Shown: positions 9,311-32,800 of the stretch, piece by piece
Numbering within the stretch: the stretch's first letter is position 1
How the letters are laid out: every line of letters begins with the position of its first letter
DNA from: Antitrichia curtipendula
Taxonomy: Eukaryota > Streptophyta > Bryopsida > Hypnales > Leucodontaceae
NCBI GenBank assembly: GCA_951230915.1
Contig: OX579638.1
Location: forward strand, 30,212,696-30,276,695
DNA: 64,000 bases
Direction of reading: 5' to 3'
The notes under the pieces: generated by a model
What the model saw: only the letters and a program-made list of their open reading frames with translations
The model's database searches: none
Told to the model about the DNA's origin: nothing
Position numbers and translations under genes: made by a program

Positions 9311-12059
9311 TGGTTGGTGTTTAAAAGTGTAAAAAAAAGGAGCCCATTCCAACCCTTCTCTGAATTTTGTCCATAACTTTTCATTGAAGACTCCAAATTG
9401 CAAACGGATTTTTGGAGATGAAATATACCTTCATTTAACAACTTTTCTTAGTTAAAAGTCTTAAGAAATAAGTTAATTTACTATTTGAAAACGGCCCCTG
9501 AAGTCTGCTGAAATTTGTAAACACTGATTTGTGAATGATGAAGTTATTAAAAAAAAATATGTATATACTATTTCCTTCAAGCATGAATATAAAATATTTT
9601 TTTCAAGGTTGAAGTATAAATTTCCAGCATATTTCTTCAATATGTAATGAACACTTGCAAGTTCAAGAATTGACATACAATTTTTGAGATAAATTCTTTG
9701 AAAGATAAAACTTATCCTATTGGAAATTTAAAAATTTAACCTCTAAATGACCAATTAGCATTTTATGGCAATATAGAGATTTTAGATAGCTCATTGCGGA
9801 TACAATTACAATTTTTTGGCTTTAACCCCTCAAGGCGTAACAATGTTTTTACAATGGAGGCTCTCAATGAATTGCCTAATTTTGATGTTTTTTTGCAAAT
9901 GGACGTGTTTGAAATTTTTAATTTTAACCGTAAAAAAGTGAAGGATAATTTGTCTAGTATGCACGGAATTAATTGTGGAAAATACTGACCATTATATTTT
10001 TAAATTATAGTAATTTTGGATGATCAACTCTTTAGGCAAAAAACTCTTCTAGAGAAAAAAAATTATAAGAAGGTAATAAATGCTTTATTGCCCTCCAAAA
10101 AAATAATTTTAGAATCTAAGGCACATGTATTATTTTTTTATTTAAAAAATTAAAAAACTAAAAACTCTCCCAAGTTTGTAGACATTTTCAAGCAAAAGGA
10201 GTAGAAAGCCAAACCTGACCAAATTGGATCCTACAAAAAATTTAAAAATTGATAAATGTATCATTTTCTGAAATTTAACAATTAATATCAGTAGTTTAAT
10301 GTTGGGAACATCTCCAAAAAATTTGAAATCATTCTAATTATTTTTGTATTCTTAATCAAACCAAATTGAATTTTGTATTTCTAAAATTACAAAAATTTAA
10401 AATTTGAATTTCTTACTTCAAACCTAGTTTGATTGAAGAAAGTAAAGACTAGAAATGTTTAAGAAAATGTTTTTTTGCATCCCTACTATTTCTTTCATTG
10501 TAAGCAAATTATATTTGCTCCCTTTTTCCTTTAGACTACATTTCCTAAATAAATTTTTAAATACTTCCCATATATATATAAATTTTGAAATCGGATAATA
10601 GCGTAGAAATTAACATGGAACCTAACAAAATGGAGATAGGTTTTTAAAACTATTTCATTGTAAATTCAGCAAACTTTGGAGGTTGTTTTGGCATAGTAGA
10701 AGAACTTTTTTGAAAAGATTTTGAACTAAGAAAAGGTAGTAATTCAAAAAAGCTTTCATCTCCAAAATTCCATTTGAGATTTGGAGATTTTACTCAAAAG
10801 TTTTGGACAAAGTTTAGAGAGAGGTTCGGAAATCATCACTTTTGACATTTTTGAACATCCTCTCTGAATTTTATTCATAGCTTTTGATTGGAGGATCAAA
10901 ACTTCAAACTAATTATAAGAGATGAAATTTTTCTAGAATTTACAACTTCTCTAAGTTTAAAAAATTTTCCAAAAAATCCTTTTACTATACCAAAACGACT
11001 TCCAAAGTCTTCTGAATTTACCAAAAATACAATTTCCAATACTTCTCTAAAATTTATTCATAACTTTTGATTGGAGATTTGAAATCTCAAAAAGACTATT
11101 GGAGATGAAAGTTGGTTTAGTTCCACAACATTTTTTAGTTGAAAGTTCTTTGAAAAATGTTCATTTATTATGTGCAAATAACCTCCAAAGTCTACTGACT
11201 TTATGGAACACCAAAATGTGTACTTAATTTTTTTTTTAAATACACTGTAAAATGAAGGTGTCAAGAGATTCTATAAAATTCCAAAAGATTCTAGAAGGTT
11301 CAAAAAGTATTCAACAAAAATCTGTTGATTTTGTCACTGATTGTCCAAATCAACAAAAAAAAATGTCGCCATTACCAAAAAAAATGTGAAGATTGTCCAA
11401 ATCAACAAAAAAAATGTTGCCATTAACAAAAAAATGTGAAATCGGACATTGCAGTAACCAAATCAACATAAATATGTTGATTTTTTGTTAATTTGGACGT
11501 CATTTTCTACTAGTGTGTGTAGAGCTAGAATAAGGGTGGAAGAAAGGAATCTTATCATCCCTTATATAGTGGTACTTTTGAAAAACAAAGGCCAATAAAG
11601 AAAATGTAGGTAGTACCACTTGACAATGGGAGCATGGTTGGTTGTTGAACTGGGCAATTAGTGTCTAGAATGCACTAAAACTGGCAATCACCGATTACGA
11701 AGTGCTACACACTATTTACTTGAATGCCATTGCGAGTAAGCACGAGGTTTGACAATATTATCCATAAATCTAAAACTGGATTTTCCTCGGCGGACAAGGT
11801 ATACTAGGAGTAGTGTGCCATTTGTGAGTGATTTTATTCCGGAGCCATTGGAAATTGTAGAGGTCGTGTCAATTTAACTTTGAAGCCAACAACCTTTTAC
11901 TGGTTTGCGACATTCCAACGATTTAATACCAAAGACTTCTGAGGACCAAATAGATTGGGTGGAAGGGACCACAAGTATCAATGGAGGAGATTTCTAAGCC
12001 ACTATGGTGAACCTTGAGTAAGGTTTCCTTGTATTGAATCGATTTTTGTTTGGGACAAG

Positions 12060-12732
12060 ATGACATTACCATATGAAGATGCCGATAGTGGGGTACAATG
12101 TTTTTCAGGTGCCATGGGCACTATGGTGGTTGACAATTTCAGGAGGGAGCTCACAATGTGGTGTGAACTTCAAAAATCACGCAATGTGAGTTTCAACCCA
12201 TATATGGTATGGAGGGCACTATTTGGGTGCCTAGAAAGGGCACTACTCTTGGATTACAGGGAATTTAAGCTACTTGCTCCACCGAAATTTTGGCATGGTA
12301 GAATTACTATGCCTCAAATATGTCGATATACGGGGAGAAGGCCCAAGTGTTGTGTTACCAGCTAATAAGGGGAAGAAAGAAGAAAGGGATGCGAGCACAA
12401 CAACCCCTAAGGCCACCGTGACTATGACCACTACATTAGTGGAAGACCCACCACCTTTCAATTCCACTGCAAGATTTTTCATACAGTTACACGGAATTAT
12501 TTTGGCTAACGTGTGAACAAGATAAAATCATTTCACACGTTTGTCCAAGGTTGGTGGTTTTTGTTCAGGTTGTGGTGTCAAAAGCCATGGAGAGGCAAAT
12601 TGCTGGAAAATACATCCAGAACTCAAGCCCAAAGGTGGAAAAGATGCCAAAAGAAGTGAATCTAAGGAGGCCAAGTCCATGGAAGGAGAGAAAAAATTGC
12701 AGAAGGCTCGATTCATAGAGTTAGAGGCCTAG
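12060..12732 (+). pseudogene. Ty3/gypsy gag with CCHC zinc knuckle, broken
   Basis: The frame from 12060 has the gag-like stretch RRELTMWCELQ and LERALLLDYREFKLL. It shifts frame near 12290 and is resumed at 12541, where C-X2-C-X4-H-X4-C (12562-12603) forms a retroviral-type zinc knuckle followed by a Lys-rich tail (KGGKDAKRSESKEAKS). A TAG at about 12730 interrupts the frame, which then continues toward the protease. Known: gag forms the particle and the knuckle binds element RNA. At least one frameshift and two stops show it is dead. Its 5' boundary and LTR were not found. Confidence 0.75.
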
Positions 12733-13560
12733 ATGGTAGCAATGAGTGCCACCACCAAAGCAAAAGGGTCTTCTTCTCAAAAGACCTCAATATTTTTTTA
12801 TGCAAAAGAAGATGACTACATATTATATGATATGGTAGATCCAAATGAGACACCAATGGATGCTTTTGCTATGACACGGAGTAAGACTATGGTGCACAAT
12901 GCACCACGGGGCGCGAGTTTGGACTTGGATCCATAGAAAGGTGGACCAACCGCCCAACACGATTGCCAAAATCATTCACATTGGAGGATGTGGTGCCCAC
13001 TTCATCCATGGTTCTACCGGTTTAAAATTCAAGTGGTCATCATGCTACTTGAGTTATCAACATTAGTGGCCAAAGCACAGACGTACTTCCGTCGAGCGGC
13101 AATAGAACATTCATCCATCACTCCAATATTGCTAGTACTTGACAATTCTCAAGGCATTTTCCAACTTGTTGGGTTCAAAGGGAGAGGTTCTATGCCTCAA
13201 CGGGTATTATTGGATTCTGGTGCACAAGATGCTGGGTGAGTTGGCAATTGAAGGCTTAGGTTTGACTAAAGACACGTTGAAAAAGCATCCGTGGACAATT
13301 AGTACTTCTATAAGGAGCAAGCATATGGCATTACAAGGAGTGAGTTGACACTATGACTCTATTACAATGATGTTTAAGATGCCAACTTCATGAAGGTGAA
13401 AGCTATAGTCATGGAAGCCAAATCATATGATGTTTTGATAGGGACTATGGTCTTACATCCTATGGATTTTACCTTCGACTTCTGAAAGGAGACGACATCA
13501 TATAGACCAAGATGACAAACAAGAGATGGACGCAAGGTTCAATTGACAACTCTTTTTATA
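12733..13560 (+). pseudogene. Ty3/gypsy gag-protease linker and aspartic protease, broken
   Basis: The gag frame continues past TAG codons near 12730 and 12934 to RVLLDSGAQ at 13201-13227. LLDSGA is the active-site loop of a retropepsin-type aspartic protease, with the catalytic Asp codon at 13213. The frame shifts just after it. In the next frame ELAIEGLGL and, further on, SYDVLIGTMVLHPMDF resemble the flap and C-terminal protease region (the usual Ile-Leu-Gly strand reads VLIG). It lies between gag and the methyltransferase, the normal gag-pro-pol order apart from the extra domain. Confidence 0.7.
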
Positions 13561-13905
13561 CAAGTTTTTACCGGTAATTTGACTAATTTCTATTGTTTTG
13601 GAGGGCTTGTTGCAGAGGGACAACCTTGATTTGAAGAAGATTTTGATACTCCTATTATTACTGCTTCAGTTGCCAACGTTAAGGAAGATGAGGACGTTGA
13701 GGTTTTTGGAAGCTAGGGACAAAGTATCATATCAACTAAAGGTGGGATCAACATAGGAAAGCACCACCAAGCTACAACGTGTCTCAGAGACTGTGATCCA
13801 AGAAGCATGACAACAATTCTTGTTGCTACAAGATGATGAAGAAGATGGAGGTGTAGAAAATGTTGGTCCACCTCTAGACACTTCTACAATCCATTGGAAG
13901 TCGTC

Positions 13906-14200
13906 AAATGAAAATATTACATTTTTGGAGTTGTTTGATAGTTTTGGCATTAGATTGGCTGCAGTGTTGTAGGAAGACTCAAAGGTATGACACTATATTT
14001 ATGAGGACAATGATGACATGGCACAACAAGTAGCCAAATATTATGTTCAACAATTGCACTCAACCATTCTCTCATTATTGAGCACCAATGCTATCAAGAT
14101 TGCGTTTTCTGCACTATCAAGCGACATTTCTTTAATTTCACATAATGACATTGTATAATTAGGGCCCGTGGATTTAATTATTGCGGGGTGGCCATATCAA
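13906..14200 (+). pseudogene. Retrotransposon-borne DNMT3-like cytosine-5 DNA methyltransferase, N-terminal part
   Basis: One frame with three stops (TAG, TGA, TAA) reads FLELFDSFGIRLAAVL (motif I, SAM-binding loop), then YIYEDNDD (acidic motif II), then a spacer, then GPVDLIIAGWPYQ (motif IV). In active C5 methyltransferases motif IV is Pro-Cys; here the Cys codon reads TAT (Tyr, 14195-14197), so catalysis is lost. The frame breaks off after the Gln at 14200, where the 13.2-kb insertion starts, and resumes at 27409. The motif order I-IV-VI-VIII-IX-X is not rearranged, unlike plant DRM enzymes. The spacing and wording are closest in my memory to DNMT3. Confidence 0.8.
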
Positions 14201-17200
14201 CATCTCAAACTTCCTATAGGACTAAATGTCCATTTTTGTCGTACGAAAGTCATGAATTCATACCTGCGTACCATTACCGCACTGATTTTGTGCGTTAAAA
14301 CAAGCACAAATTCCGTACGTTTGATGTACTGGATTGATATGAACGGAAGTCGTGCTACTTCTGTATTATTGAATCATGCATTGTAATTGTACAAATTTGA
14401 CACTTTTGTACATCATTGTATCCATGTATTTTCTTCATGGAATAAATGTTATTTTGCACAAATTTAAAAATAAATAAATAGATAAAATAAAATAAAATAA
14501 TAATAATAAAATAAATTTAAGATTTAAATATAAAATAAAAACAAATAAAAATAAAAAATTCAGTCCCACAACCCGTGCAACCCCACAACTCGGGCATCCC
14601 ACCAAGTGGGCAGCCAGGTTCAAATCCTTGACCTCCTAAATGGGAGGTCATATACTTATGGCCAATGCACCACGTTGTAATTCCTTTATGTAATGTAGGA
14701 GTAGAAATTTACTTGTATACTTCTTGCAATTTTTTTTTCATTTCATTTGTTAGTTCAATAGACTTTGGTGTCCGTTTAGGCATAGTAGAAATGTATTTTT
14801 CAGAAAACTTTGAACTAATAAAAATTGGGAAATCAAGTCACATTCCATCTCCAAAAATCTGTTTGCAAATTTTATTTTATTTTTTGAACAAATGGGAAAA
14901 ACCCACTGCACTAAAAAAACACCACAATACAAGACAGCCAAGCCAAGAGGCTGGACAAATGAAGAGAAGAAGAGCAAAAGGAAACAAAAAAAAGAGGGAG
15001 CGGAAATCCTAGAAAAAACTACATCTAGGGGGACCACACCCTTGCCACCTAATAATGTTGCCCTCCCTCAAGGCTAACAACTTGGAGCGGAGCCAAATGT
15101 TATCAAATTTGAGCCAAATGGAAGGCACATGGTGAGAATTGAGCTAGGACAACCTAAGGGCTTTAACCCCTAAAGGTCAGTGACTATGTTTTCACCAAAA
15201 TCGCTCCAAAATTGCTATTTCTAATACAAGTACCAAATTTTAGAAAAAAAACGTTTTTGGAAAAATGCAACCGTAGGATCTTGCATTAACCCTTTAGTGA
15301 CCGGTTGACCACTTTGTGGTCGATTTTGGGACTCTTGGTCTGATGTTGTTCAAAATACATTTGATCACAAAAAACTCAAAGAGTAACGCAATTAGAGTGT
15401 CTTCGTGCACTTCAAACAAAACCAATTTTAAGGAAGTTGGAGCGTTGATGAATTAGATATGAGGTTGCAAATTCAAATGGCCTGGACCTTCAAATAGAAA
15501 GTATTCAACAAAAATACAAAAAAATGTCAACCAAATTGTAAGATTTTTTTGTAACTTGATGTCTTGACAAGGCATAAGTGTTTCTTTGTAATCTCATGAA
15601 TGCCCAAAGTAAATTTATGCATTGATATTTATGTAGCGCAAATTCTAAAGGGTCATTCAAATCATTGATTTTTGAGAATTAAGGAAAGCAACTCAAACTC
15701 CAACAAGGCTCTAGAAGCAAACATGATGTAGAGGTACATTTTACTTTCTTCAATGTACCAAATCTGCACATTTTAGAATGGTATTTGCATTGATGACCAC
15801 AAATGACCATTTTTTGTGAACTTCAAAAATTTGTAACTAATTTCACAAAGCTTGAAAAAATATGAAACGACTTGGGTTAGATGCCTATTCTACTTGTCTT
15901 TTGTGAAAAATTTACTAAAAAATATTAAAAGATGTTTCACCTCCCCAAAATTTAATTTTAGCCCTTAACACCTGAGCGCCCTAGCGCCCCAAAATCGGCC
16001 TGTCCAAATTTTATTCTCAAGAAAATAAGGCCAGATCTCGTCTGTATTGGCAAAATAAAAGGACAAGGGATAAGGACAGGGGTGTGTGTGATAATGCGGA
16101 GTGGGGTCAGCGGTTCTGGGGCGGTCATTAATGAGTGGGGCCAGCGGAGCAGAAAGATGTACACGGAAAGCGCAGTTTCTGTGCTCTGGCCAATTTTTAG
16201 GCGACCGGTTCCACCGGCTCAAGCCGGTTCATAGCCGTTGGCCCAATTTCGCGCGCTCTTTTTGCTCCCTGCTTTGTCATTCCCCGCTGTCGGGTAGAGA
16301 GGAGCGCGCTTAGGGAACACACGAGGTGTCTGGCTGCAGGTTGTGAGTGTAGATGAAAGGTAAGTAACAAAACTTGAATCTTCACTTAATCTTTTCTTCA
16401 ATCTTCGCTTGATCTTCACTTCAATCTTCCGTTGACCTATCCTGTGGTGGTTCTATAGGGCCAAAGGTAAGGGTGTGTTATAAGAAACAAGGCCTCGGAC
16501 GGGTAAAACGGGACAGCCAAACCACGAGTTGGCCGTCCGAAAGATTGGCTTCTAAAATCAAACCCACGGTGACCAAGAAGCGCCTTTCACCGGTGGGAAC
16601 AACAAATAAGATCGACCATGTGGGCCATTAATCCCACTTCGTCGCTACAAACACGAAAAGGAGCGCTTACTGGATAACCACGGCTCGCAACAAGTTTACA
16701 ATGCAGAAATTGAATTGCAACTAGCCTCCAAATCCGGCTAGGAATAACAGAAATGAAAACGAACCACAAGCCACAACACACTGGAGACCTTCAAAGCTCT
16801 TCAAATCTTCATCTTCAAGTCTTTAAGCCTTCACATCTTCAAAAATATCTTCAAAACTCTAAAAGAACTCCAACTTCACCTTCAAACTACCTAAACTCCA
16901 CTCAAAAAGAAAAGGCAGCAAACCTTCCTATGCTTCCATATTCATAACTTTTGCATTTCTTCTTCAAATTAAAAGATTGATAGCTTTTTTGAGAGCTAAC
17001 AAATTTTCCTATCACTCCTACAACTTTCAAGTCACTCCAAAACTCTGTCCAACTTCTATGACCTCTCAAAGTTTCGGTCCATATATGGTAAAACCAAGAG
17101 ACTCTCTCACCTTCTCACACTCACAACTCACTCATAAATGCTCCAAATTGAATGAATCATAGCTTTATAGAAAGCTAACAACATGTACTACACTCCATCA

Positions 17201-17773
17201 AAGTTTCATTCTAAACAAAAGACCTGTCTATTTTCTATGGTCGGTCGAAGTCTCAGCCCCTCTTCATAGGAGGCAGCAGACCTCCCTCCACTCAAACAAG
17301 CACAAATCTCAACTCAAAAATTCAAATAAAGCAAGAGAGAACAATTTGGAAAGCTAACAATATGATAAACAACTCCTCCAATTTTCATTACCAAATTCCA
17401 AAAACCCAATACACAATGAGCTTCCAAACACTCGGTTCCCCCAAAACAACATTGGGAGAGAAGATGAATAGTGTCCATCTTTTCCTCCCCTTTTTCAACA
17501 CCTTTTGCCCCACCTAAACAAGTGTACATCAGCCCTTAACTCCCTCTTAAAGTCAACTTACACCTAATGGCCTTCATATTTGGCCCCACATCTAAATCTT
17601 TATCTTTAACTTAGAAGGAAAATCACTTCAAAGTCCAAACTATTTCCATTCTTTCCTTCTACAAGTATAACCAAACAAAATAGTTTCAACAAAATACTTC
17701 AAATATGGATTGAAGTACTAACATTAAACCAATGCCTATTAGAGGTAAAAAAATAGAATTCCAAGACTATTTT

Positions 17774-18262
17774 TTACTCCATCTGCAAGAACTTGAGAAT
17801 GCGCTTGATAGTCGCAACGATGTAATCAACACGACCCGTCTTTGTTAAAGGATTCACTGGCCCTTCTAACCAACGATGGTGACCACGACTTCCTTCAGTA
17901 GGCTTCATCATACAGTAATATTGATCAACGTTGAAACCTTCGAAACATCCTTCAAATGTCACATCTCGACTGCCAGGCTCAACACATCCAACCTGCAACA
18001 AAATCACCAGTGCCCGAGCGTCACGTTGAAGATTCCCGTGCCATCGCCGCTCCACACGAGGTTGCTTTGGCGAGCGAGAAGGCCCAGCTTCTTCTTGTAG
18101 ACGCTCATGCGGCGGCGCAAGACTTAGTGGCAGAAGAGGTTGATCCGGTAGTTGTGACAATGAAAATTCAAATCCAGGCTCCGATTCTACTTCTTCCTCT
18201 TGGGACTCTGAAAAAACCCTCCAGTTCGACATTCTGACTATAAAGTGGAAAATTAATATCAC
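17774..18262 (-). CDS. Divergent accessory ORF of piggyBac-1, unknown function
   Basis: An intact frame of 162 codons; a second Met at 18232 (MSNW) gives 152 residues and is a likely start. The first 30 residues are acidic (ESQEEEVESEPGFEF), followed by a Pro/Leu-rich stretch and a basic PSRSPKQPRVERR segment that could be a nuclear localisation signal. The C-terminal half (ARALVILLQVGCVEP, GFNVDQYYCMMKP, DYIVATIKRILKFL) is unrecognised. On its strand a TATTTAAAAGG box lies about 70 bases before the start. It is divergent from the transposase and inside the same terminal repeats, so it probably belongs to the element. Unlike the transposase it carries no stop or frameshift. I do not assign a function. 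Confidence 0.45.
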   Translation of the reverse strand: MILIFHFIVRMSNWRVFSESQEEEVESEPGFEFSLSQLPDQPLLPLSLAPPHERLQEEAGPSRSPKQPRVERRWHGNLQRDARALVILLQVGCVEPGSRDVTFEGCFEGFNVDQYYCMMKPTEGSRGHHRWLEGPVNPLTKTGRVDYIVATIKRILKFLQME

Positions 18263-18753
18263 TAATGGACTTCAATGAAACTCTAAAGCAAAACCGTCCT
18301 TTTAAATAGATAACATGAACCTCCACGAAACGTCATCTTGAAGTTATTCAACAAAATAGCGTCACCATGAAGCTACTCAACAATACATATTATAATATGT
18401 TTTTATACTATGAACAAATTTACAACATGACACCGCCTCTCCCAGTCGTGACAGTGCCGCCAAGGGTTTAGGGTTTTTGTGCACTTGGCGCAATTCCGTG
18501 CGTCCTCTCCAATTTTTGGTACGTAAAAAGAAAAATACAGAGAGTGCTCAATGCGAGGTGTGATTCATTGTGGAGAGTGGAGCTGCCAAAAAAATTGTTT
18601 TGTGGAGATGTTTGGATGAGGTTCCACTTCCAGAGCACCATTATCAGTTGTGGAGGTTTAGCACGTACATTCCCTACACTCATCGCAAGTAGTGCGCTTC
18701 GCCAGGAAGTGGCGAGTGGTGCTGTGTGTGTGATTGATCCATTTGGAGGTGGC

Positions 18754-21700
18754 ATGGACTTACAAGAGCGAAGTCCGGTTGGAGAAATGGCGGATGTGGA
18801 AGGACCAGAGTGTGCGCGCATCGCCATGGAAATGTGCAATTCGGCAGGTCGGAGGGCAACGGCTGAAGAATTGTGCGAAATTGAGGCGCAGTTGGAAGCG
18901 TGGGCCATCGGCCGGCATAAAGCAACGCCCGATCAGGTCGCCAAAGTCAAGCTGTGTTTGCAGGAAGAATTTCTTGTGCAACTCATTGAACCGTCGAAGA
19001 ACCATTACTGGCCTGAGCATCCGGGTGGCGAAAATTGGCGATACTTGTTTCGTCGACATTGCTTCCGCGCACTAGGGATTTACGAACGCATTCCCGAAGG
19101 GCATCCAGATGGGCTGCCCCCCTCTGTGAACGAATTCATCAGAAAGAAGTGGTGGCCTATTGCAGATCAGGTAGACGTGCGGAAGGGGCAGGAGATGACG
19201 AACAACGCCCTACAGCTTCAGCTCCGTACTCAATTCATAAACGGGGAGGCAGCACGCGAACGGGGCGCGGCAGAGTGAGAGCAGACACTGCTGCCGAACT
19301 CGCAAGCAGTGCCAACTCCGATTGATGCTCCCGTGAATCGGGGACGTGGGCGCGGTAATGGCCGCGGAAGGGGGAGGGGAATCAATCAGGGTCGGGGGGG
19401 AACGGAGGGCATGCAAGAGGGAGGACCTCACGCACCCAAAATTTTGATCTAAATCAAAGTGCATATGCGCTAGACTTGAATGGCCCGCCGGAATCCGATG
19501 GGGAAAACATTGTGGAGGGACACAAAAATTCATTACCTGCGGCTGGAGAAGTTGCCCAACCGATTCATGGGCGAGGACGAGGGCGACAGAGACCTGCGCC
19601 TAGAGCAAGCATTGACGCCCCTGCAATTCCGGGAGTAGCCACACCGGAGCGTGGCAAAAGACGCGCGCGGGGCCGTGGGCGCACAGCAGGGGGCGGGTGG
19701 GGAGTTGCAGCAGGTGGGCCGGCGCAAAATGAAACAGACTCCGATGGATGTTCAACACCACATGGCCCGATTGCGGATCCGCCACCAGGATGGTCTCCGC
19801 CAGTGATCCATCCGGCGCTCAGGTCCCCGCATTCCTTGAGGCGCCCGCGGGGTCACGTGACGGGGGCCGCGGGAGAAAGACATGCATCACCCAGGCAAGG
19901 AATTGGGGTCCCGGCGGTGGATTTCTCTCCCAATTCCAACCTTGGACACCATCGGCGTCGGAGGCGCATAAGCCAAGATCGGTAAGTAATGTGATCCATT
20001 CAATTTTCACTCCATGATTGCTGTAATATGCTTTGGATGATTTCTAAAAATTCACTTCATATGCCGACTGGTTCTCTGAAAGCAGGCGGGGTTGGCTCTC
20101 AAAAAGGAGTATATTTTGGAATCCCATGGATACAAGTGCTACATGTGCTTTGTACTGGTCAGTATTTGGACATCTTCGAAAATTTGAGAGAACAAATTCG
20201 TCTCATGCACATCAAAATTCCATCACATTCGTCTCATGCGGCTACATGTACTTTGTCTCTAACCGTGGTAATTGGTGGTCTGTTCAGATCTAGGGCTGAG
20301 GGTAGTGCATGCCTGGGATCAGCAGTGAGAGGGCTTGCAGAATCCTTTGCAGCATCCGCACGCGTACGGGAATGGCTACAATATGGGAATCAGGGCGGAG
20401 ACCAAGAGGGAGCAGGGGCCGATGATGATTTCCTACCGTGCCTTCAGGGGCCATTTGGATCTGTATCCGGGCGTACATTGCCGCAAGCAGTATGGGTGTC
20501 GCTCGGGGTCCTTGGCCTAAACGTTGATGACTATGGCGGGGTGCATGAATTCGTGGGCGAACCGCTCCAACGCTGGCAAGAGGCCGGAGTGCCATTCTAC
20601 TTTGTTCTCTTCGCAGGCAGTGTCGGCGGCCACAAGGTTCGAGTCTCCGACTGCAGAGCACTTCCACAAAATGCAAGAGCTGCTCCCGATATTGAACAGG
20701 CAGGCCCCTTGAATGAGGCAAGGGCGGGCTCTAATTCTGACGATATTCCGCACTTCCCCACGCAGCGATTAGGCGAGGAAGAGGCAGTCACAGTTGGGGT
20801 GCCGACGGACCATCAGGCTGGCCCATCGCATATGGGGGGCGAAGCGGAGCAGACCAGTTCAGCTGGACCATCGGAAGAGGAGCCGACAGCACAACAGCAG
20901 CCAGAAGGTATGACCGGAACTGACTCGAGCTCAAAGTCGGATTGGCGGGGGGATTGGCAAGATTTTGCAGGTGACGATTCATCGCTGGACTACTCTGATT
21001 CACAGTCACCGTTAGAGAGTGGAAGCATAGATCTAATTCACGAGATTGGGTATTATGGAGGGGACGGTGACTTGGACGATTTAGATTTCCGTGCCAAATA
21101 CCATGATCGGTATTGGCAAAGCCCCGAGACGACTCTATTAGGAGACCGCCAATCTTTTCGTGGCCCTCATCCTGGCCCAAAGTCTAGAGTGAACCGGAGA
21201 AGACCTCTTGCCATTCACTTCTTTGAATTATTTTTTGACGGTCCGGTAGTGGAATAGATTGTTGAACAAACAAATCTGTATGCATCTCAGCCGGGCACAG
21301 GACGCTCTCAGACCACGAACGGTGGCCCTCTTTGGGTGCCAACATGTGCTTTGGAAATCCGCGCCTTTATCGGTGTGACGATTTTTATGGGTATCAAGGT
21401 CCTGCCTACTATAAGGGACTATTGGAAGCGAAAGGATTTCTTCCAATGCACCTTGATACCTCGTGTCTTCACACGGAACCGCTTCGAGTCGTTACTACGG
21501 TGTCTTCATTTGGTGAATAATGCAGAGATAGTGAGTGACAAAGAATCCCCCCAGTATGACAAGCTAGCGAAGGTGAGGTGGATTCTAAATGACTTTGTCA
21601 CCAAGAGTCGAGCATTGTACAACCCGGAGAAGTTCATCACTTGTGATGAGATCATGGTTGCCTACCGTGGGCACTATTCGGGATTCCGCCAGTAGATGCC

Positions 21701-22649
21701 GGCTAAGCCGACCAAGTATGGTTTCAAATTTTTTGCAACCGTATGCAATCCGTCACGATATATATTCAATCTCATTCCATATGTAGGGCGGTCAGGCGTT
21801 CCAGACTCGGGCCAAGGTGAGAAGGTGGTGCGTGATCTCACTATTGGCTTGGACGATGTTGGCCACACTGTAGTTTGTGATAATTGGTTCACAGCACCGA
21901 AGCTCTTTGAGGACTTATACCGACGTGGCATATGGGCAACAAGGACCTTCAGGGAGAACCGAATCGGATTGCCACCATCACTTCTAGGGCACAAGAGAGG
22001 TGAGCACCCTAGGGGCACCTTGATGTGGCGGATGCATGCCCAACGGCGTATAGCGGCAATATGTTGGTACGATTCAAAGCCTGTTTACATTTTGTCCACC
22101 TCTGCTGATCCTGTGGTTGAGGGTGCTCGTTCCATGAGATGGGTGAATGGTATTCGAGAAGCCATTGACTCTAGTCCACAGCAAGTTGAGTACCAAACAA
22201 ACATGCGGGGCGTTGACGTCGTCGATCAAATGCGTACAGACTACAGTGTGCAATTCCACTCGCACAAGTGGTGGCACAAACACTTCTTCTTCGTTGTTGA
22301 CAGCTGGCTCAACAATTCATGGGTGTTGCTCAAGCATGACCGTCTCACCCGAGGGAAAAGCGTATATCGTCGCCGACTGGCCTATCACATGGAGGTAGCC
22401 GACTCACTGATTGGTCCTTGGTTGTCTGCACCCTCCACGAGCAAGGTGGAGTGCCTTCGCCACCCAGGGGCAATCCACTTCAGCAGTCATCGGCCTAGCC
22501 TTTGGCGGAGATGTATCGTCTGCAAGAGCAAGACTCGATTTCGCTGCAATACCTGTTCGGGTGCTCATATGTGTGTTGATCGTTGCTTTGTGAAGGTCCA
22601 TACACAAACAAAGTGGGCGCTGAAGGTAACGCGACCTAGATGTCAATGA
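18754..22649 (+). pseudogene. piggyBac-1 transposase with long N-terminal extension, broken
   Basis: Seen: an N-terminal segment (18754-19275; phrases ELCEIEAQLEAWAIG and WPEHPGGENWRYLFRR), Arg-Gly-rich stretches (about 19330-19420 and 19560-19700), an acidic Ser/Glu-rich segment (about 20700-21110), then the piggyBac core. In the core the three catalytic acids are present as TCDEIMVAYRG (about 21650), VVCDNWFTAP (about 21885) and RGVDVVDQM (about 22210). A Cys-rich zinc domain closes it (RRCIVC, RCNTC, CVDRC, about 22505-22600). A GTAAGT donor at 19982 and an acceptor at 20287 keep the frame and would remove a 306-bp intron. Lesions: TGA at 19276, a frameshift near 19440, TAG at 21255 and TAG at 21693. 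It would be near 1,190 residues if whole, about twice the usual piggyBac length. Known: these enzymes cut and paste at TTAA. Confidence 0.82.
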
Positions 22650-25079
22650 GTGATTTACCGTTTCAGGATTGAGTCAGGTGCCATGGGTTTTGGATGTGAG
22701 CGGTGCTGGCTTTGGTGGTCCTGTCTCCGAGGATGGTGGAGGTGGCAATGACTCAGCCGATTGGATTGTAGGGTCATCTTTGCTATACTTCCTATTCCTC
22801 GAAGCATTTTTTGGCACGTAGACCGTCGCAATGGAAGCGAGGACCTTAGCGGTTGGACTTATGGATGATCAGCGCCAAGTTTTCGTTAGGTCTGCAGCAG
22901 ACTTGTTGTAGGTTGTGAGGTAGGGACGGTACTGTGTTCACTGATGTGCTTCGCCCCATTGAACTGTGAATGTTCTTATTTGCAAATTCTAATGACCTCA
23001 TTTGAATCTATAAGATTGATTCGTGTTGCATGCCTTCACGATTGGTATTGAGTCTGCGTAGTCCTTTTTTTCCGGACCAGTCTTTGTTCTGTAGCCTTGG
23101 CCAATTTTGCTTGCAACCGTTCGACCGCCTCTTCAGCTGGCATTGGCAGTTGGTTACTAGGCGCGGGACTTACACGGTGGCAGGGGGGTACGGGTTGTAC
23201 CGTGGGGCAGCAGTCCGAGGTGTAAGTCTCCCAAGTACACTGCTCCCTGTCAGTCCTTCAGTCTGCGGCGATGGCCTGCCGAATTGCAGGCTACAGTGAT
23301 CGATCAGGGAGGATCAATAAATTCCGGAAATTGGCCACCCATGTTGTCATACTTTTTCCCCACCACCCTGACAAAATGGCGCCAGGAAATACCAATTCTG
23401 CTTGCCGCAGGGCTTCCTCGAAGCTGCAGACCCCCTCAATTTTTGTGTCAGAAAATAAAGTCTTCGAATCTTTGACTATTATAATATTAGTCACCCTACG
23501 GTGAAAAGGGCTGTAATTCTCGCCATAGCCGCGGACTGCACTCCTTTCTCCGATTCAACGGTCAAGTCCTCTGGATCTCCAATTTCGATCTGTGGTAGGC
23601 ACTTATGCGGCAGTGGGCCAATATGGTGTGATAATGCGGGAAAACGCCGAAGGCACTCAGGGGTTAAAAGGTTCATTTATGGACCTTCTACTTTATTTTT
23701 AGAGATTTGTACCGTTGGATGAGTTTGATTTTTTGTTAGGTTGAAGAATCTTCCTTATAGAAACACCTTATACGGTTTGATCTAAGACTACATCTTTAGA
23801 GTGGCCACAAAGTTCACTTTCTTGAAAAACTATGCCCGCCCCCCAAATCAACCACGGTCACTAAAGGGTTAAATTAGTTTGAGAAGTCGTGGTAAATTTT
23901 TCAGAAATTTCCACCGTGTGGATTGCAAGATAATAGCGTTTGAATTGACATAAATCCATTTTTTGTCCCTGCAAAAATCCGGGCAGGTGCACTTCACAAG
24001 GTCACATTTGTATGAAAAAATGTACAAAATGGTGGTTACTCTTTGGATTCATTCTTCAATGCAAGTTAGCTACATGCTTGAAATTTTTTAGATCATTTGA
24101 AATTGTAAAGCATATAGGAAAAAAATAGTAAGTAGAAAGAGGTAGAGAATGTTCAAAACACTAAATTGTTAAGACTTTAAATATGGAATTGAAAGATGCC
24201 AATCCCAACGGTTATAATGTTGTAATAAACAATCTACACCCAATGTTTTTAATTTTTTTTCAAAAATATTGAAAATTGAGTAAAATAAAGGACTTCAAAG
24301 TTTATTTTAGGGTAGAAATTCCATAACTATCCTCAAACTAAAACTCTTCATAACTTTCATCTCATCAATCAAAATGGAATGATTCAAAGCTTTCCACACA
24401 TATATAAACCTAAAGAACCAATTTCAAATTTTTATTTAAAAAAAAAGTGATTTTTAAAGAAGTTTTTTCAGGTGCCCGTGTTGCCTGTCGACCAATGAAA
24501 ATGACATATCATGCAATAGCTTTTTACCCATGTGGTCAAAATTTATGAAAATTGTTGGACCTGAAAGCTACTTCTTGGGCACATCTTTTGTGAAAGTTTC
24601 AAAGAAAAAAATTGAAATTTTCAGTCGTAGTGAGCTGCCCAAAATTGCTATGTTGTCAAAAAACGATGTTTGGTCCTTTAGGGGTTAAGACACGCAGCTC
24701 TGCCTAAGTCCAGGAGAGAGTCCCAGAGTGCTTGTTGGAGGAGGCCACGTGGCCAAAGTGTATGCGCAAACACCTTCTGATTCCTAGCAATTCACATTAA
24801 CCAAAGCGCAGAACCTCGCAAGAGGGACCAAATGATTGTAAAGTCATGAAACCGACGGGGCAGCGAAGAGCCAAAGATGCAAAGAGTTGGTTCGAATCTC
24901 GTATGAGGGCCCATCACTGGTTGGTCATCTAGTAGGTGTTTGCATTTTGAAGTTTGCAATCCGTTTGCAATTTGAAGTTTTCCTTAAAAATTTATGGACA
25001 AAAACCAGAGAGGGTGTTTAAAATTGTCAAAGAAAATTTCCATTTAAACCCCTCTCTGAACTTTGTTCATAACTTATGA

Positions 25080-25215
25080 TTGGAGACTTCAAATTGCAAA
25101 AGGATTTTTGGAGATAAAAGTTAGCTTGATTTTTCAACTTTTTTTAGTTCAAAATTTCTTAAAAAATGTTATTCTACTATGCCTAAACGGTCACCAAAGT
25201 GTACTAACTTTAAAA
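25080..25215. repeat. Dispersed repeat copy, also inverted at 14755-14880
   Basis: The phrase TTGGAGACTTCAAATTG, then TTTTTGGAGAT, then ACTATGCCTAAACGG is shared with 9345-9520, 10860-11190 and, inverted, 10665-10835 and 14755-14880. The inverted pair 14755-14880 / 25080-25215 brackets the family A element, so an extra nesting layer between it and the 13.2-kb insertion is likely (inference). Confidence 0.55.
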
Positions 25216-25384
25216 AATACGGGATTGTGAATGATCTAGTTTAAAAAGAAAATTCCATTTCACATAGAAATCCAACCTTGGTGATTTTAACATTGCCCAA
25301 ATGCCAAAAAATTATTTGAAACTCTTCTAAGTCAATATGAACAAAATGAACAAAAAAGTATTGATTTTTTGGTTGATGTAGACG

Positions 25385-26265
25385 TTGTACAGTGGGGTAT
25401 AGTTCATTTACAAATTGTCTACTGTGCCATTCCAATTTTGTTTGCATAGTATAGAGAAATTTTGGAATTTCTTGTCTTGCATAGTTAATACTCAATTCTT
25501 ATGCAATCCCAATCAAGCATACCAAACTTAAGTTCCAAAAATGCAAAATTCTATTTTTGGTGAATTTTTGAAGCCAATTTGTATAGTTATACATGATATT
25601 TTATTGAAAACAATTAGTGATGATAATTCAATTGTATAGATATGTAGGAAACATTCATATGCACATCTTTCATATTAAAAAACACCCCTTTAAGTAACAA
25701 AAATATTATTTAGGACAAGTTCCATATGAGGCGTCATATGACCAAACTTTGTAAAATAGATATTTTTATATTTCAAGTAGATTTTGGCAAAGTAATTGTA
25801 CCATCATATTCACATTTACAAAATTAGTCACAATGTGCGGGTCAAATAGCAAAAACTAGTTAAAATATATAAATATGTATTTGACAAAGTTTGGTCATGT
25901 AATGCCTCACATTTAACTCTTCCTTGATCATATTTTTGTTACTTAAGGGATGATTTTTAATATGAAAGATGTGCATATAGATGTTCTTTACATATTTAAG
26001 CAATTGAATTAAAAAATTCATCACCAATTGTTTTCTATAAAATATTACGTATGACCATACAAATTGGCTTTAAAAATTCAACAAAAATGATATTTTGCAT
26101 TTTTTGGAACAAAAATTTGGTATACTTGATTGGAATTGCATAAGAATTGAGTATTAATTATGCAAGACAAAAATTTCCAATTTTTCTCTATACTGTGCAA
26201 AGAAAATTTGAATGGCACAATAGGCAATTTGGAAATGGATTGTACCCCATTGTACTATCCGAATC
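25385..26265. repeat. Large foldback, arms about 410 bp, loop about 50 bp
   Basis: The left arm (25385-25790) and right arm (about 25845-26265) are imperfect reverse complements. Shared phrases include CATAAGAATTGAGTATTAA, ACCAAACTTTGT and GAAAGATGTGCATAT. Weaker pairing extends outward to about 25240 and 26390. The 83-codon frame at 26160 lies in the arm and is not a gene. A transcript would fold into a long hairpin. Confidence 0.7.
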
Positions 26266-26609
26266 AACAAATTTCTTTGACCATTTTGTTAACTTGTGCC
26301 AAATCAACAAAAAATTATAAAAAAAAAATCAAAACAATACCCAATGAACAAAAATTTGGTTTTCTATCCTATCCGGAATATTCTAGATTGCGCTCACTAT
26401 TAGTTGTCTGATCTTGCTTCACGGTGGCCAATTTTAAACCTACAATCTCGCATTTACAAAGGTTATTCTTAACCAAAACACCACATGAATCACTTATTGA
26501 AATGGTTGTAAATTTTTTCATACTTAAAACTATTCATTGTTCTTAGGGATTAATGTTAAAGAAAATCAAAAACTATAAAATATATATTCTTTATTTGCAT
26601 TAGAACGTT

Positions 26610-27065
26610 TGGTGCATCCAAAAAAATTCAAAAATTTTGTGATTTATTTTTTACAAAATTGAGATGGTTGAAAATTGTTTTCTTTTCCACAATGGGCTTT
26701 GGATATTTTTAGCAATGTAATTTTTTTTTTCAATTTTCTTTTGGTAATATATAATTCAAGCATTTTTATGTATCTAGAAAAAAATTTGAAAAATTTGAAA
26801 AATATTTTTTTTGACAAAATTGTAATGGCTGGGAGTTGGGTTTTTCCCAAATTGAACTTTGGATATTTTTAGTGATGTTAAAAGCTTTTTTTCCATTTTT
26901 TTTGCAGCAGATTATGCAAGCTCTTATGTATTTCTAGAAAAATATTTGTAAAAAATTTCAAAAAATATTTTTTTTTGACAAAATCATGATGGTTAGGCTG
27001 GAGCTGTTCATTTTTCAAAGAGGATTGCAAGTATTTTTAGCAATGTTAAAAACTGCTTTTTTTTG
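26610..27065. repeat. Three degenerate tandem units of about 130 bp
   Basis: Three successive blocks share the order TCTAGAAAAA-type start, ATTTTTTTTGACAAAAT, ATGGTTGG/ATGGCTGG, TTGGATATTTTTAG and AATGTTAAAA. They are T/A-rich and non-coding, within the right part of the 13.2-kb insertion. Confidence 0.55.
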
Positions 27066-27408
27066 CAAAAAAATTTCACAACTTTCCTTTAAATTTTTTA
27101 AGAAATGCATTCAATCAGTATCCATGTCGCACGGATTCCGTACAAGTTGATTCAGGACGTAATCAGTGACGCTTTCGTCAAGCATTACTTAGACACTGAA
27201 TCCGCATGGAATTGGTTACACATGATTTCTGTGCAACATTAACATGATGATAATATACATGGAAGAGACACGATATACGTATTGTCATAATGGATGTTGT
27301 TACGTGTGAATGGGACACTTTGAAGCCCGCGTAATCCGTACGTTTGTATGAACCAACGGAATTCGTACGATAAAAATGAACATTTAGTCATATAGGAAGT
27401 TTGAGATG

Positions 27409-28083
27409 AAAGAATTTCTATGGCAGATAAACATAATGGATTAAAGGACAATTATTCTTTTCAGTATTATGATATGGTGTGGGTGATATGTTCTATTCAG
27501 ACTTATCAATCCCGACCACTAGAGTATATTATTGAAAACATACTCGTGATAGGTACTTTACATATATCCACACTTGAAAATATCCACTACATCCACGAGA
27601 TTCTTAGAATTCCCGTATTCTTGGATGCAGTAGCAATGGGCTCACAAGCTCATAGACTGTGACTTTGGTGGACCAATATGGCACCGCCAGAGTTATTACA
27701 TGGAGTGGTTGGATGTATTCAATGGTCTGACGTTTACGTGTAAGACATTTTGGATTCCTACCATTCACCAAGGCAACTATATCACAATGACCAAATACTG
27801 TTGGCGGTAGTCAACCGCAAATGTGAGTCATGAAAGGTTTTGTCCACCTTGGTGAGTTTTTCAAAGTCCTATGCATTTAAAGACAATGGCCCAAACTTAG
27901 TGTAGAATTCTTGCTCTGAAGAGATGGTTGAGCTTAACACCAATGAACAAGAATGGACTATAGGATTTTCCACGGGAGTCACTTAGGTTCTTGACATTAC
28001 AGAGTTTTAGAGACAATATTTATTTGGTCAAGTGATAGATTTAAATTGTTTCTTTTGGGTGGTTTCACTTGTGATGGCAAAAC
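27409..28083 (+). pseudogene. Retrotransposon-borne DNMT3-like cytosine-5 DNA methyltransferase, C-terminal part
   Basis: After the insertion the same protein resumes: SMADKHNGLKDN, YYDMVWVICSIQ, then EYIIEN (motif VI, Glu-Asn), then LDAVAMGSQAHRL followed by a TGA and LWWTNMAP (motif VIII), then EWTIGFSTGVT (motif IX-like) and RQYLFGQVIDLN (motif X). All of this lies in one frame from 27420 to about 28083, with five or more stops (TGA, TAA, TAG) and no obvious frameshift. The resemblance to DNMT3 in the stretch from the ENV motif to the AHRxRxxW motif is by memory, not by search. It lies between protease and reverse transcriptase, so it was part of the element's polyprotein. Confidence 0.8.
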
Positions 28084-28496
28084 AAAAGCGTATAACTTTG
28101 GCACTAGCGAGCCACTTGAGTTTTTATAAGCTGTGAGAGTCTATGAAACCATCAAGTTTTGGAGGTCCAGACTTGGTGGTTGGAGGTAAAGAGGCCTTCA
28201 CAACTCACCCATAGGATTTATGAAAAGATACTCCATTTTTTACGACTCCAAGAATGAGTTGGTCTATTTGGGAAGGAATGGCCAAACACAAAATCAAATT
28301 GGAGGAGCATGTAGAGAAATTATTCTTAGAGGAGTACTTAGAGGGTTAAATAGAAGAATTGTGGCATAGTTCAAAAGCAATATAGCGTGGTTGGCATGGA
28401 ATAAGAAGACTTTGCTCTAGGTGGTATACAATAACAACCAAAGGTGGAAATAACTGTTTCAAAGGAAGATAAGAAGGAGGCGGTAACCAACAAAAC

Positions 28497-29101
28497 TTAG
28501 AAACCGTTGGTAGGTTTAAAGGATGAAGCAAAGATGAAGGAGGAGCAAGAGGTCCTTAAAGAATACATGGATTGTTTTGCCTTTAGTTTCAAGGATTTGG
28601 GAGTATTAAAAGGGCAAAAAGTACAAATTAACTTGACAAATGATGCACCAATTTATCACAAACTATACAAGTATAACGAGGTAGAGTGCAAGATGATTTA
28701 AACCTAGACCAAGGAGTTATTGGAGGCAGGATTGGTGGAGTTAGCTTCACCGGATTCTGAGTATGCATCTATGCCATCCAAGAAGGACTTCAATGAAAAT
28801 TGAACTGAGAAAAGGATGTGTGGGAATTATTATAGAATTAATAAATTCACGAAGTTGGATCGTTATGCAATGCCAACATCAAACAAGAATTTTGACGCTA
28901 TTGGCATTTGGCCATGCTAAAGTATTTAATACTTTGGATCTCTGGTTGAATTATCACCAAGTGAACTTGGTATTTGAGGGAGTGATAAGGAGAAGACGAC
29001 ATTTTGGGGAATTGATGAGGATGGAAAGGACCGCCTATATCAATGGAGATTCTTTCCATTTGGTTTTTAAAATGCATCGACGAATTTTCAAAGAGTTATA
29101 A
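28497..29101 (+). pseudogene. Ty3/gypsy reverse transcriptase, N-terminal half only
   Basis: Frames in this stretch read the usual gypsy entry region (EYMDCFAFSFKDLGVL, INLTNDAPIYHKLYKYN, TKELLEAGLVELASP), motif A (VFNTLDLWLNYHQV, with the catalytic Asp in the FxxLD position) and motif B (DRLYQWRFFPFGF). Frames shift near 28750, 28800 and 28985 and several stops occur. The sequence then jumps straight to RNase H at 29104, so the YxDD active-site motif and the thumb are missing. Confidence 0.8.
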
Positions 29102-29775
29102 ATCGCATACTTTTTTATTTAGATTAAATGGCAACAAATTCCTATTGGTGATAGACCTCCAACCATTGAAGTGGCTAATGGAATGTGATAAGCTCATTGG
29201 CAAGTTTGCACCGATGGGTTCTAATGCTAATGGAGTATGAATTTAAAATTGTGCATTGTGCCGGTTTGGTGAATATGGATGTTGAAGGCTTAAGCCGCAA
29301 TCCAACTTTTAGCCAAGTGTATACGGGGGCCTGATGGCACGTGGAGGAGGGAAAAGATTTGTTACTAGACTAGCATTTTGTCGCCTATTTGAGTTTATTG
29401 GCGATGACTGGAGACACTTTTAAAGAAGCCATTATGGCCATAATGGATGTGGATGGAGGTGAAGAGTCTAGGAGCGCCAAGGATATTTTTGATGATGTGG
29501 AGGTGATGAAATACTTGAAGCATGGCAAATTGATTGCCACGACATCAACCAAAGAGAGAGATTGGATTCTACAACAAGCCAAACGGTTTATGTGGGAGGG
29601 GTTCATTTGCTTCAAGTGTGACTGGATGGCAACAAGAAGGTGGTACCGGCGTCTCACAAAAGAGTAAAGCTAATCATGCATACACACAAGGACTTCGAAC
29701 ACTTTAGAGTGTGAAGAACTCACAATTTACTACAGATTCACTATTGGTGGCAAGTATGCAAATACAAGTCAAATA
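29102..29775 (+). pseudogene. RNase H remnant and first half of integrase zinc finger
   Basis: RNKFLLV-type start then IDLQPLKWLMECDKL matches the HQPLxWL segment of gypsy RNase H, followed after a frameshift by MEYEFKIVHCAGLVNMDV and GLSRNP, the usual end of that domain. A linker (29389-29667) leads to LIMHTHKDFEHFRV, the His-His half of the integrase HHCC zinc finger, then NLLQIHYWWQ. The CACTA element begins at 29776, before the Cys-Cys half. Confidence 0.75.
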
Positions 29776-30811: not shown

Positions 30812-31790
30812 ATAATTGGTGGCCAAATGCATGGTTTGTGATAGAGTATGGGTGTCATTTAACGCTTGGATGCCTTAGTTACAACCATTGCCAATTATGA
30901 AATTGGACTATAGCAGGAGTTTGAATTTTACAAGACCATTGCCAATGACACCACAACATAACAAGAATGTGTTGGTGATGATCAAACACTTTTCCAAGTG
31001 GATTGAGTTGGGGGCATTGCTTGACAAGTTCAATAATAAGGTAGCTTATTCATTTTTGGATTGCATTTTGAGTCGCTTTAGAGTTCCAATGGAGATATTG
31101 ACAAACCAAGGACACAAATTTCTTGGTGAGTTTCAAGCCTTATGTGAATGAACAATGATTGATCACTGTACTACCTCAAGAAATCACTCCAAAGCATATA
31201 GATTTGTAGAGTGCATGGTGCAAACTGTCAAAACGAGACTTCAAAAGTATAGCTTAAAGAAAAGGCATCATGGAGATTGAGACTTATAATTACCATGGAT
31301 AGCAATGGGTTATCGTTTTAGTAAGCAAGCTTCTCTAGCTTCTTTTTCACCCTATTATTTATTGTTTGGGCTCCATTTGATTTTACCAATGGCTATCAAA
31401 CAAGATACATATAAGATATTAGATAACATGGATGATCCAGACACATGGGCACCCGTATGTGGGCAATGTGCAGATTTGTACAAAAAGGTGATGCCAATGG
31501 CTTAAGAAGACCTTTATATTGCGCAGTATAGAGACACTTTGTGCTATGCCACAATACGAGGAGGGAATTATAGGCCTCAAGTACGATGTTTTCTGCTTAG
31601 CGACTATGTGTACTTGCACCAAGCAGTGCCAACCACTGTTGACGTGATTGCAAGGCGTATTATTCTACAAGTGTCTAAGGTGCTCAAGTCAAGAGTGTTA
31701 CTCTTGAAAGGTAGTGATGGCAAAATCAGGGAGGATTACATGCACAATTGTGTGCCATATCATTTGCTTCACATTGATGGGTAGATTGAT
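30812..31790 (+). pseudogene. Ty3/gypsy integrase (Cys half of zinc finger, DD35E core, C-terminal region), broken
   Basis: Directly after the CACTA element the frame reads LVAKCMVCDRVW, the Cys-Cys half of the zinc finger, then LQPLPIMK and the core. The DD35E positions can be placed. Asp-1 is Asn (AAT, 30924-30926, in SLNFTRPLPM). Asp-2 is Asn (AAC, 31104-31106, in EILTNQGHKF). The Glu is kept (GAG, 31209-31211, in FVECMVQTVK), exactly 35 codons after position two. A TGA at 31149 and later stops and shifts interrupt it. The tail (YNAT-free, with REDYMHNCVPYHLLHIDG) leads to the PHD finger. Confidence 0.85.
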
Positions 31791-31993
31791 TCTAGTAGTT
31801 CACATATTTCAGTTGGACTAAATTGTGTGATGTGTGGAAGCGCTAAGAACATTGCCACTATAGTGTTGTGCGATATTTGTTTTATTGAGTGGCATACAGA
31901 TTGTTTGAGTTTGCCGCTGCAAGAAATATCGGCAGACCGGTGGATTTGTCTCAAATGTGTGATGGAACATGGACAATTGTCTTCATCTTTGTA
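31791..31993 (+). pseudogene. C-terminal PHD finger of the retrotransposon polyprotein
   Basis: After one TAG the integrase frame continues to a C4HC3 zinc finger at 31824-31958: C-X2-C-X11-C-X2-C-X4-H-X2-C-X15-C-X2-C, with the conserved Trp two residues before the seventh ligand (RWICLKC) and LCDIC in the centre. All eight metal ligands are intact. The frame ends at a TAG at about 31993. Known: PHD fingers read histone H3 tails, mostly methylated or unmodified Lys4. By position it may have guided integration to particular chromatin (inference), a role chromodomains play in other gypsy elements. Confidence 0.85.

Positions 31994-32766: not shown

Positions 32767-32800
<34 letters not shown>

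Follow-up and report, generated by a model that had tools for sequence, protein, structure and literature searches.

A decayed Ty3/gypsy-type retrotransposon with its own DNMT3-like cytosine methyltransferase in the moss Antitrichia curtipendula

The region from 12.0 to 32.0 kb of the window (the 64,000-nucleotide stretch of A. curtipendula DNA analysed here) is, on its domain content, a decayed Ty3/gypsy-type retrotransposon with its own DNMT3-like C5-methyltransferase (MTase). The domains in the window are gag, protease (PR), DNMT3-like MTase, reverse transcriptase (RT), RNase H (RH), integrase (IN) and a PHD finger (Table 1). We hold with moderate confidence that this is a dead copy with the MTase lying between protease and RT, and that in intact relatives the enzyme likely acts on the element's cDNA, methylating it before it integrates. 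When 156 relatives (154 database proteins and the two ORFs of contig L001) were searched against the window by tblastn (E ≤ 1e-3), all 388 of 388 HSPs fell within 11.5-32.5 kb, and the same 156 relatives reversed gave no hits at this threshold. Because the HSPs are confined to the element and the reversed relatives give none, the motifs in the window are more than chance. The copy itself is dead and, judged from its reading frames, cannot be active, since its MTase contains 15 stops, the catalytic Cys is replaced by Tyr and 214 residues of RT/RNase H are missing (L001 ORF2 residues 227-440 are without counterpart in the window).

Table 1. Features of the element copy and a nearby host exon, in positions of the window
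Feature	Position	Strand	Evidence
gag remains	12036..12942	+	tblastn, P0113 at 12036-12551 (40%) and P0119 at 12535-12942 (47%)
CCHC zinc knuckle CSGCGVKSHGEANC in gag	12562-12603	+	Read from translation
Aspartic protease remains, 9 stops in aligned stretch	13051..13647	+	tblastn, P0049/P0070, about 52% identity
LLDSGA of protease	13207-13224	+	
MTase 5' half, motifs I to IV, 5 in-frame stops	13730..14200	+	P0005 residues 142-302, 48% identity, one frame
MTase motif I, FLELFDSFGIRLAAVL	13922-13969	+	
MTase motif IV, DLIIAGWPYQ	14171-14200	+	
Later insertion, inverted terminal repeats	14201..27408	.	Repeat pair; MTase reading resumes beyond
MTase 3' half, motifs VI, VIII, IX, X and C-terminal linker, 10 in-frame stops	27414..28361	+	P0002, P0007
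MTase motif VI, EYIIEN	27522-27539	+	
MTase motif VIII, GSQAHRL	27639-27659	+	
MTase motifs IX/X	about 27940-28090	+	
TAA-CAACCA (GIQ*QPK), probable relic of in-frame stop between gag-PR-MTase and RT	28432..28440	+	
Reverse transcriptase, N-terminal part	28528..29112	+	L001 ORF2, 43% identity
RNase H end and start of integrase region	29124..29640	+	L001 ORF2 residues 441-609
Integrase core and tail	30819..31781	+	L001 ORF2 match; PF00665
PHD finger, integrase C-terminus	31785..31991	+	PF00628, E = 3.1e-8, over its cut-off
CAP_N exon (host gene, pointing to a eukaryote)	38781-39227		

MTase motifs I, IV, VI, VIII and IX/X lie in canonical order between protease and RT, as the original prediction had placed them; the catalytic PCQ of motif IV reads PYQ and the ENV of motif VI reads ENI. 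Relatives align to both halves of the enzyme, which bears out the proposal of a Ty3/gypsy element with a DNMT3-like MTase. The best match by bit score was P0005 for the 5' half (145 bits) and P0002 for the 3' half (51% identity, 287 bits, one frame); P0007 was 47% identical to the 3' half over 319 columns. The profile search that had been suggested as a check succeeded only by way of the relatives. The window's own pieces gave no PF00145 hit, whether searched one by one (E ≤ 1) or, for the 3' half, as a single read-through containing X (E ≤ 10); this read-through also matched no PDB chain at E ≤ 10. However, PF00145 was matched by six of six scanned relatives (E = 2e-7 to 1e-12), which are 37-53% identical to the 3' half of the window copy (relatives were matched to the window at up to 287 bits). 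The assignment thus rests on matched relatives that fit PF00145, and not on the window's own pieces.

The un-rearranged order I-IV-VI-VIII-X in the window indicates the DNMT3 type, the best match to DNMT3 itself having been computed on relatives. Among the matches listed, the closest solved sequences and folds for the relatives' MTase are animal DNMT3, and for one relative a DNMT3-like fold is predicted. DNMT2-type (tRNA) chains ranked far lower than DNMT3 (E = 4e-5 versus 5e-20). No DNMT1 or CMT chains were seen among the structure matches listed, an absence that does not serve as a test. DRM enzymes, whose motifs are circularly rearranged, are ruled out because motif I precedes IV, VI, VIII and X. 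There was no match to PWWP or ADD in the scanned relatives. Most relatives in which this region is present retain the catalytic PCQ and ENV.

Directly after motif IV the MTase is divided by a 13.2-kb insertion, probably a DNA transposon. A pair of inverted repeats of 71 nt, 82% complementary, marks the two break points (14201-14271 and 27338-27408), so the splitting insert is real; this, and the resumption of the MTase reading after it, agrees with the later insertion first proposed.

The order gag-PR-RT-RH-IN typical of Ty3/gypsy elements (Metaviridae), with integrase downstream of RT, is present in both the window and L001 (Pfam order). The best solved match of the L001 RT is Ty3-G Gag-Pol (E = 6.7e-100), while the RT of the window is shortened and its match to Ty3/gypsy-type RT runs via relatives. 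A DDE-type integrase is indicated by rve and H2C2 in L001 and by a weak rve in the window (PF00665, E = 1.4e-4, under its cut-off), which rules out a DIRS element, in which a tyrosine recombinase takes the place of the DDE integrase. Residues 657-1042 of L001 ORF2 match window positions 30819-31982 with 50.5% identity (E = 3e-110).

Long terminal repeats were sought by blastn (word 7) of 4000-13000 against 31501-46000, which gave three matches of 19-40 bases, and no LTR pair was accepted; the only same-strand match (4819-4858/34209-34248) was not taken as an LTR. Local alignment gave best scores of 37 (41 bases, 9583/34519) and 26, with shuffle maxima of 36 and 32 (10 shuffles each). The two ends of L001 share 127 identical bases, which is what a circular molecule with its LTR collapsed would show, and no tRNA-iMet primer site was detected in its non-coding stretch. 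Over the window, there were no Rfam families at gathering score and no tRNAs by ARAGORN.

L001 is an uninterrupted relative, in which gag-PR-MTase is followed by a single UAG and then, in the same frame, by RT-RH-IN-PHD. The possibility that the MTase of uninterrupted relatives lies outside the element did not hold, as gag, PR and MTase are found within a single protein in P0124, P0135, P0140, P0141 and L001. The Gag-side position is not universal, because in five relatives forming a second architecture the MTase adjoins the integrase (visibly downstream of RNase H in three of the five) and in P0143 and P0147 it continues into RT without a stop. Several of the long relative proteins are gene models, in which splicing around breaks is possible. 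A PHD finger is also found downstream of integrase in L001 ORF2, P0094 and P0148; the solved PHDs nearest to that of a relative include UHRF1 and KDM5A.

Named relatives come from Marchantia, Calypogeia, Sphagnum and Closterium, and unbroken predicted proteins occur in liverwort genomes. None of the relatives found carries a Klebsormidium name, most hits bearing no name at all, and none was found in viral contigs by searches with window pieces or by the broad alignment A2. Seven viral-contig loci (L006-L012) and four Streptomyces loci (L002-L005) were set aside as their matches to the MTase profile were partial only (26-58% identity). In a tree of 38 rows hand-picked from 68 usable ones, plus a DNMT3A outgroup filled to 49%, the 3' half of the window copy joins JGI and Logan proteins (98/98), with an end branch of 0.63 and a composition flagged as odd. 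This group stands beside a clade holding liverwort proteins (91/96).

The UAG of L001 is followed by CAATCA, which fits the leaky-stop motif CARYYA, so it is probably a leaky stop. The window has UAA-CAACCA at the same place, which is also where the proteins of six relatives end in '..GIQ'; DNA downstream of the stop was read in two copies only (the window and L001). A leaky-motif stop after gag-PR-MTase means that the MTase is probably made together with Gag. UAA is described as lowering readthrough in the TMV context, and the UAA of the window copy counts against readthrough there. The inactivity of the copy, the Gag-side position of the L001 MTase before a probably leaky stop and the PHD finger ending the integrase all add to the earlier reading.

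Plants usually fight retrotransposons by DNA methylation, and in this case a methyltransferase of that kind is encoded by the target itself. Chromoviruses are Ty3/gypsy elements with an integrase chromodomain; they likewise have a chromatin-reader domain at the integrase C-terminus, but in the present family PHD replaces the chromodomain and an MTase is added. The kind of element is already known, its closest described member being KnitGypsy-Dnmt3 of Klebsormidium, an LTR gypsy element of a streptophyte host whose polyprotein includes an MTase that is DNMT3-related, un-rearranged and free of introns (de Mendoza et al. 2018, PMC5890265). That paper also describes SymbioDIRS-Dnmt3 and SymbioLINE-Dnmt of Symbiodinium, retrotransposon-borne cytosine MTases, in line with the reading of the literature in the original prediction; these belong to DIRS and LINE classes, whereas the family of the window and L001 has a DDE-type integrase core (rve). 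As described in PMC5890265, KnitGypsy-Dnmt3 would differ from L001: its MTase is assigned to the Pol ORF in the text, while that of L001 ends the gag-PR frame before the stop, and the figure legend gives a DIRS-like repeat structure. The term 'PHD' is absent from the main text, while the L001 integrase ends in a PHD finger. What the present family adds to the known kind is a likely leaky stop, a PHD finger and a second architecture. Host DNMT3 (animal DNMT3A/B; Physcomitrium DNMT3, PMC6453930) shares the motif order, and the solved matches are animal; it differs in that the scanned relatives have no PWWP/ADD match and their MTase is embedded in a Gag polyprotein, the solved comparison being animal DNMT3. 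RIRE2-type rice gypsy elements are named as readthrough candidates in a passage that mentions no MTase (PMC2754532).

A 2019 opinion paper gives methylase-encoding transposons as absent from land plants such as tracheophytes (PMC6338049), and we found no literature report of land-plant hosts for MTase-carrying retrotransposons. Bryophytes do carry such elements, since relatives lie on long contigs in Marchantia and Calypogeia and at least remnants occur in Sphagnum. With this enzyme, the liverwort elements would likely be able to methylate DNA copies of themselves. Since Marchantia is a tractable model, the advantage that DNA methylation may bring to a retrotransposon can be tested there.

In the mechanism that we propose, the leaky UAG-CARYYA would yield mostly gag-PR-MTase and only a minor share of RT-IN-PHD. 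Packaged in the particle with Gag, the MTase would meet double-stranded cDNA there and methylate it before integration, and the PHD finger may direct integration via histone H3. An MTase on the Gag side of the stop predicts both stoichiometry and site of action. As a tentative extension, on balance doubtful, a streptophyte-wide family (zygnematophytes to mosses and liverworts) may package a captured DNMT3 at Gag-like amounts by carrying it before the leaky UAG-CARYYA, with in-particle methylation of cDNA and PHD-guided insertion of the marked copies.

Alternatively, the MTase might act on the host side, methylating resident copies or target chromatin and leading to self-restraint or to settling in silent DNA. 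We think this unlikely, despite the C-terminal PHD finger being a likely histone reader on the integrase, because the stop in L001 separates the two, the MTase lying before it and the PHD finger on the product after it, so that they need not act jointly. The CpG observed/expected ratio of the element parts (0.35-0.53) compared with 0.77 in the later insert fits past methylation, but host methylation alone could explain the loss, and CpG is scarce outside the element as well: the host CAP exon, at 0.395, matches it, and the ratio over the whole window is 0.555. An RNA substrate (template or primer tRNA) or a non-catalytic, structural part in the particle seems improbable. RNA methylation has been suggested for LINE-borne enzymes by de Mendoza et al., in whose yeast assay the SymbioDIRS enzymes gave de novo CG methylation and the K. 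nitens gypsy DNMT3 gave no detectable methylation, a result that weighs against methylation of the cDNA too and that the authors called inconclusive (PMC5890265). Eight of 78 relatives have no Cys at the first motif IV-like match, of which at least one (P0134) has PCQ elsewhere in the protein. Against such a role, the Cys is kept in the other 70 and motif VI in 21 of 21 long members, and DNMT2-type chains rank well below DNMT3.

With its broken frames, the window taken by itself would be compatible with insertion of an unrelated host or bacterial MTase gene into a single gypsy copy, which we consider scarcely credible. Independent insertion of a host or phage MTase is ruled out, barring assembly or annotation errors in all of them, by the single-protein fusions of PR-MTase or gag-PR-MTase (P0005, P0045, P0124, P0135, P0140 and P0141), and P0140, from Marchantia, is encoded on a contig of 26,988,051 bases.

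Reading the + strand of the window from stop to stop gave gag, protease (PR), methyltransferase (MTase), reverse transcriptase (RT), integrase (IN) and PHD pieces. The 3′ half of the window MTase, read through with X, found 24 proteins at E ≤ 0.01 (37 to 55% identity; approximately 5.8 billion proteins searched). P0005, one of these 24, and the MTase of L001, a contig with an uninterrupted relative, found 119 (E ≤ 1e-5) and 37 proteins (E ≤ 1e-3), respectively, each among the approximately 8000 candidates with most shared words. When the relatives (154 proteins and two L001 ORFs) were compared with the window, 388 HSPs were obtained at E ≤ 1e-3, all within 11.5-32.5 kb, and their reversed sequences gave none at this threshold, which bears out the predicted element. 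The proposed search for the C5-methyltransferase profile PF00145 was negative for the window's own sequence (none of ten pieces, nor the read-through MTase 3′ half) and positive for relatives, with precomputed PF00145 in 18 of the 24 proteins found with that half. Element-relevant Pfam matches of the ten pieces were limited to PF00665 (E = 1.4e-4, under its cut-off) and PHD-type families, the best being PF00628 (E = 3.1e-8).

Element pieces and transposase remnants in the window
Feature	Position	Strand	Pfam
gag with CCHC knuckle	12036-12942	+	
PR	13051-13647	+	
MTase, two parts	13730-14200 and 27414-28361	+	
piggyBac-type transposase remnant, in insert	21258-22646	+	PF13843
RT	28528-29112	+	
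RNase H and IN start	29124-29640	+	
IN	from 30819	+	
PHD finger	within 31785-31991	+	
Second piggyBac-type transposase remnant	45137-46272	-	PF13843

The MTase is split by an insert of 13.2 kb (14201-27408) with inverted terminal repeats (CATCTCAAACTTCC..., 71 nt, 82% complementary). As the flanks are read here, the left half breaks off at the CAA codon of motif IV. Past two or three repeated bases, the right half picks up at the next codon, which makes the interruption a precise insertion of later date. The insert is probably a TIR DNA transposon with a target repeat of only two or three bases, and the piggyBac-type transposase within it may itself be nested.

Each MTase half occupies a single frame, with five and ten in-frame stops; 12 of these 15 align with Trp, Gln or Arg in the relative. 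Motif IV reads PYQ, not PCQ, and the window has no match to residues 227-440 of the second L001 ORF, which cover part of RT and RNase H. The element parts have a CpG observed/expected ratio of 0.35-0.53, against 0.77 for the insert, but a host exon is just as low (0.395) and the window as a whole stands at 0.555. Taken together, this points to an old, dead copy that was probably methylated. Approximately 1.2 kb of extra sequence lies within the integrase region (29640-30819), its translations containing repeated words such as VCNLFATNVQLVCDW.

L001 (9285 bases) is binned in a cyanobacterial MAG labelled Synechococcales; it and P0059, labelled Obscuribacterales, are probably eukaryotic contamination of bacterial bins. 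The ends of L001 share 127 identical bases, and its gag start lies at the opposite contig end, from 8582. Frame 3-3491 encodes gag, knuckles, PR and MTase (PF00145, E = 7e-12; aspartyl protease, E = 8e-4, under its cut-off), and 3492-6635, which continues this frame beyond a single TAG, encodes RT, RNase H (RH), IN and PHD (RVT_1, RT_RNaseH, Integrase_H2C2, rve and PHD in Pfam), with Ty3 as top solved-structure match (E = 7e-100). The order gag-PR-MTase also occurs in P0124, P0135, P0140 (Marchantia) and P0141; P0147 has gag knuckle-PR-MTase-RT, P0109 (Closterium) knuckle-PR-MTase and P0143 MTase-RT-RH-IN. The original prediction of a Ty3/gypsy element carrying an MTase and split by a later insertion was correct in both observation and reading. 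A second architecture, RT-RH-MTase-IN-PHD, is whole in P0148, P0151 and P0153, with its MTase-IN-PHD portion in P0152 and P0154; four of these five proteins were in the tree and form one clade (100/99).

The enzyme type was examined on relatives by profile, model and fold. Sequence profiles ranked DNMT3A first (E = 5e-20), followed by 4onj, a tobacco DRM (E = 2e-10), and by HaeIII, DRM2, HhaI and DNMT2. DNMT3 chains also rank first in structure matches of the P0005 model (mean pLDDT 70.9; 40 sequences). A DRM is ruled out because the motif order is not rearranged. The window's own piece, P0001, matched no PDB chain.

The L001 stop reads TAG CAA TCA, the sole TAGCARYYA on the + strand of that contig. 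In the window, frame 28330 reads GIQ*QPK, with TAA CAA CCA at 28432-28440. Six of the 154 proteins (P0012, P0014, P0016, P0017, P0019 and P0020) end in GIQ, and P0086 reads GIQYQSK and continues into the RT start. UAG-CARYYA is the leaky stop that tobamoviruses use, classed as type I (PMC2754532). CARYYA is expected after a stop by chance in approximately 8 of 4096 cases, assuming equal base use. Readthrough at the element stop is a prediction.

This kind of element is already known from Klebsormidium (PMC5890265), and PMC12344493 restates that DNMT3s within retrotransposons have been reported from streptophytes and dinoflagellates. No description of bryophyte DNMT3 retrotransposons was found in the open-licence literature searched, including passages of PMC6453930, PMC6338049, PMC11244446, PMC10952607, PMC8616336 and PMC5382211. 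This analysis adds that such elements extend to bryophytes, that the MTase lies ahead of a stop that is probably leaky, that the integrase is followed by a PHD finger and that a second architecture exists; the function of the MTase element is a prediction. Named matches come from Calypogeia fissa (P0044, P0073, P0091, P0106), Marchantia polymorpha (P0051, P0081, P0094, P0101, P0120, P0140, P0142, P0144, P0145), Sphagnum (P0080, P0092, P0110) and Closterium (P0109, P0155); one is MAG-labelled (P0059), and ten of the named matches are assigned to contigs between 8.8 and 67 Mb in length. Parts of the MTase are missing from all three Sphagnum proteins, and part of the protease from P0044, which leaves Marchantia P0140, a gene model, as the clearest uninterrupted example from a plant.

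Elsewhere in the window, an exon from the host's gene for adenylyl cyclase-associated protein lies at 38781-39227 (+) (CAP_N, E = 4e-8; solved CAP1, E = 6.5e-14). Short tandem arrays lie at 8887-9062 (units of approximately 22 bases) and 49551-49929 (approximately 75 bases).
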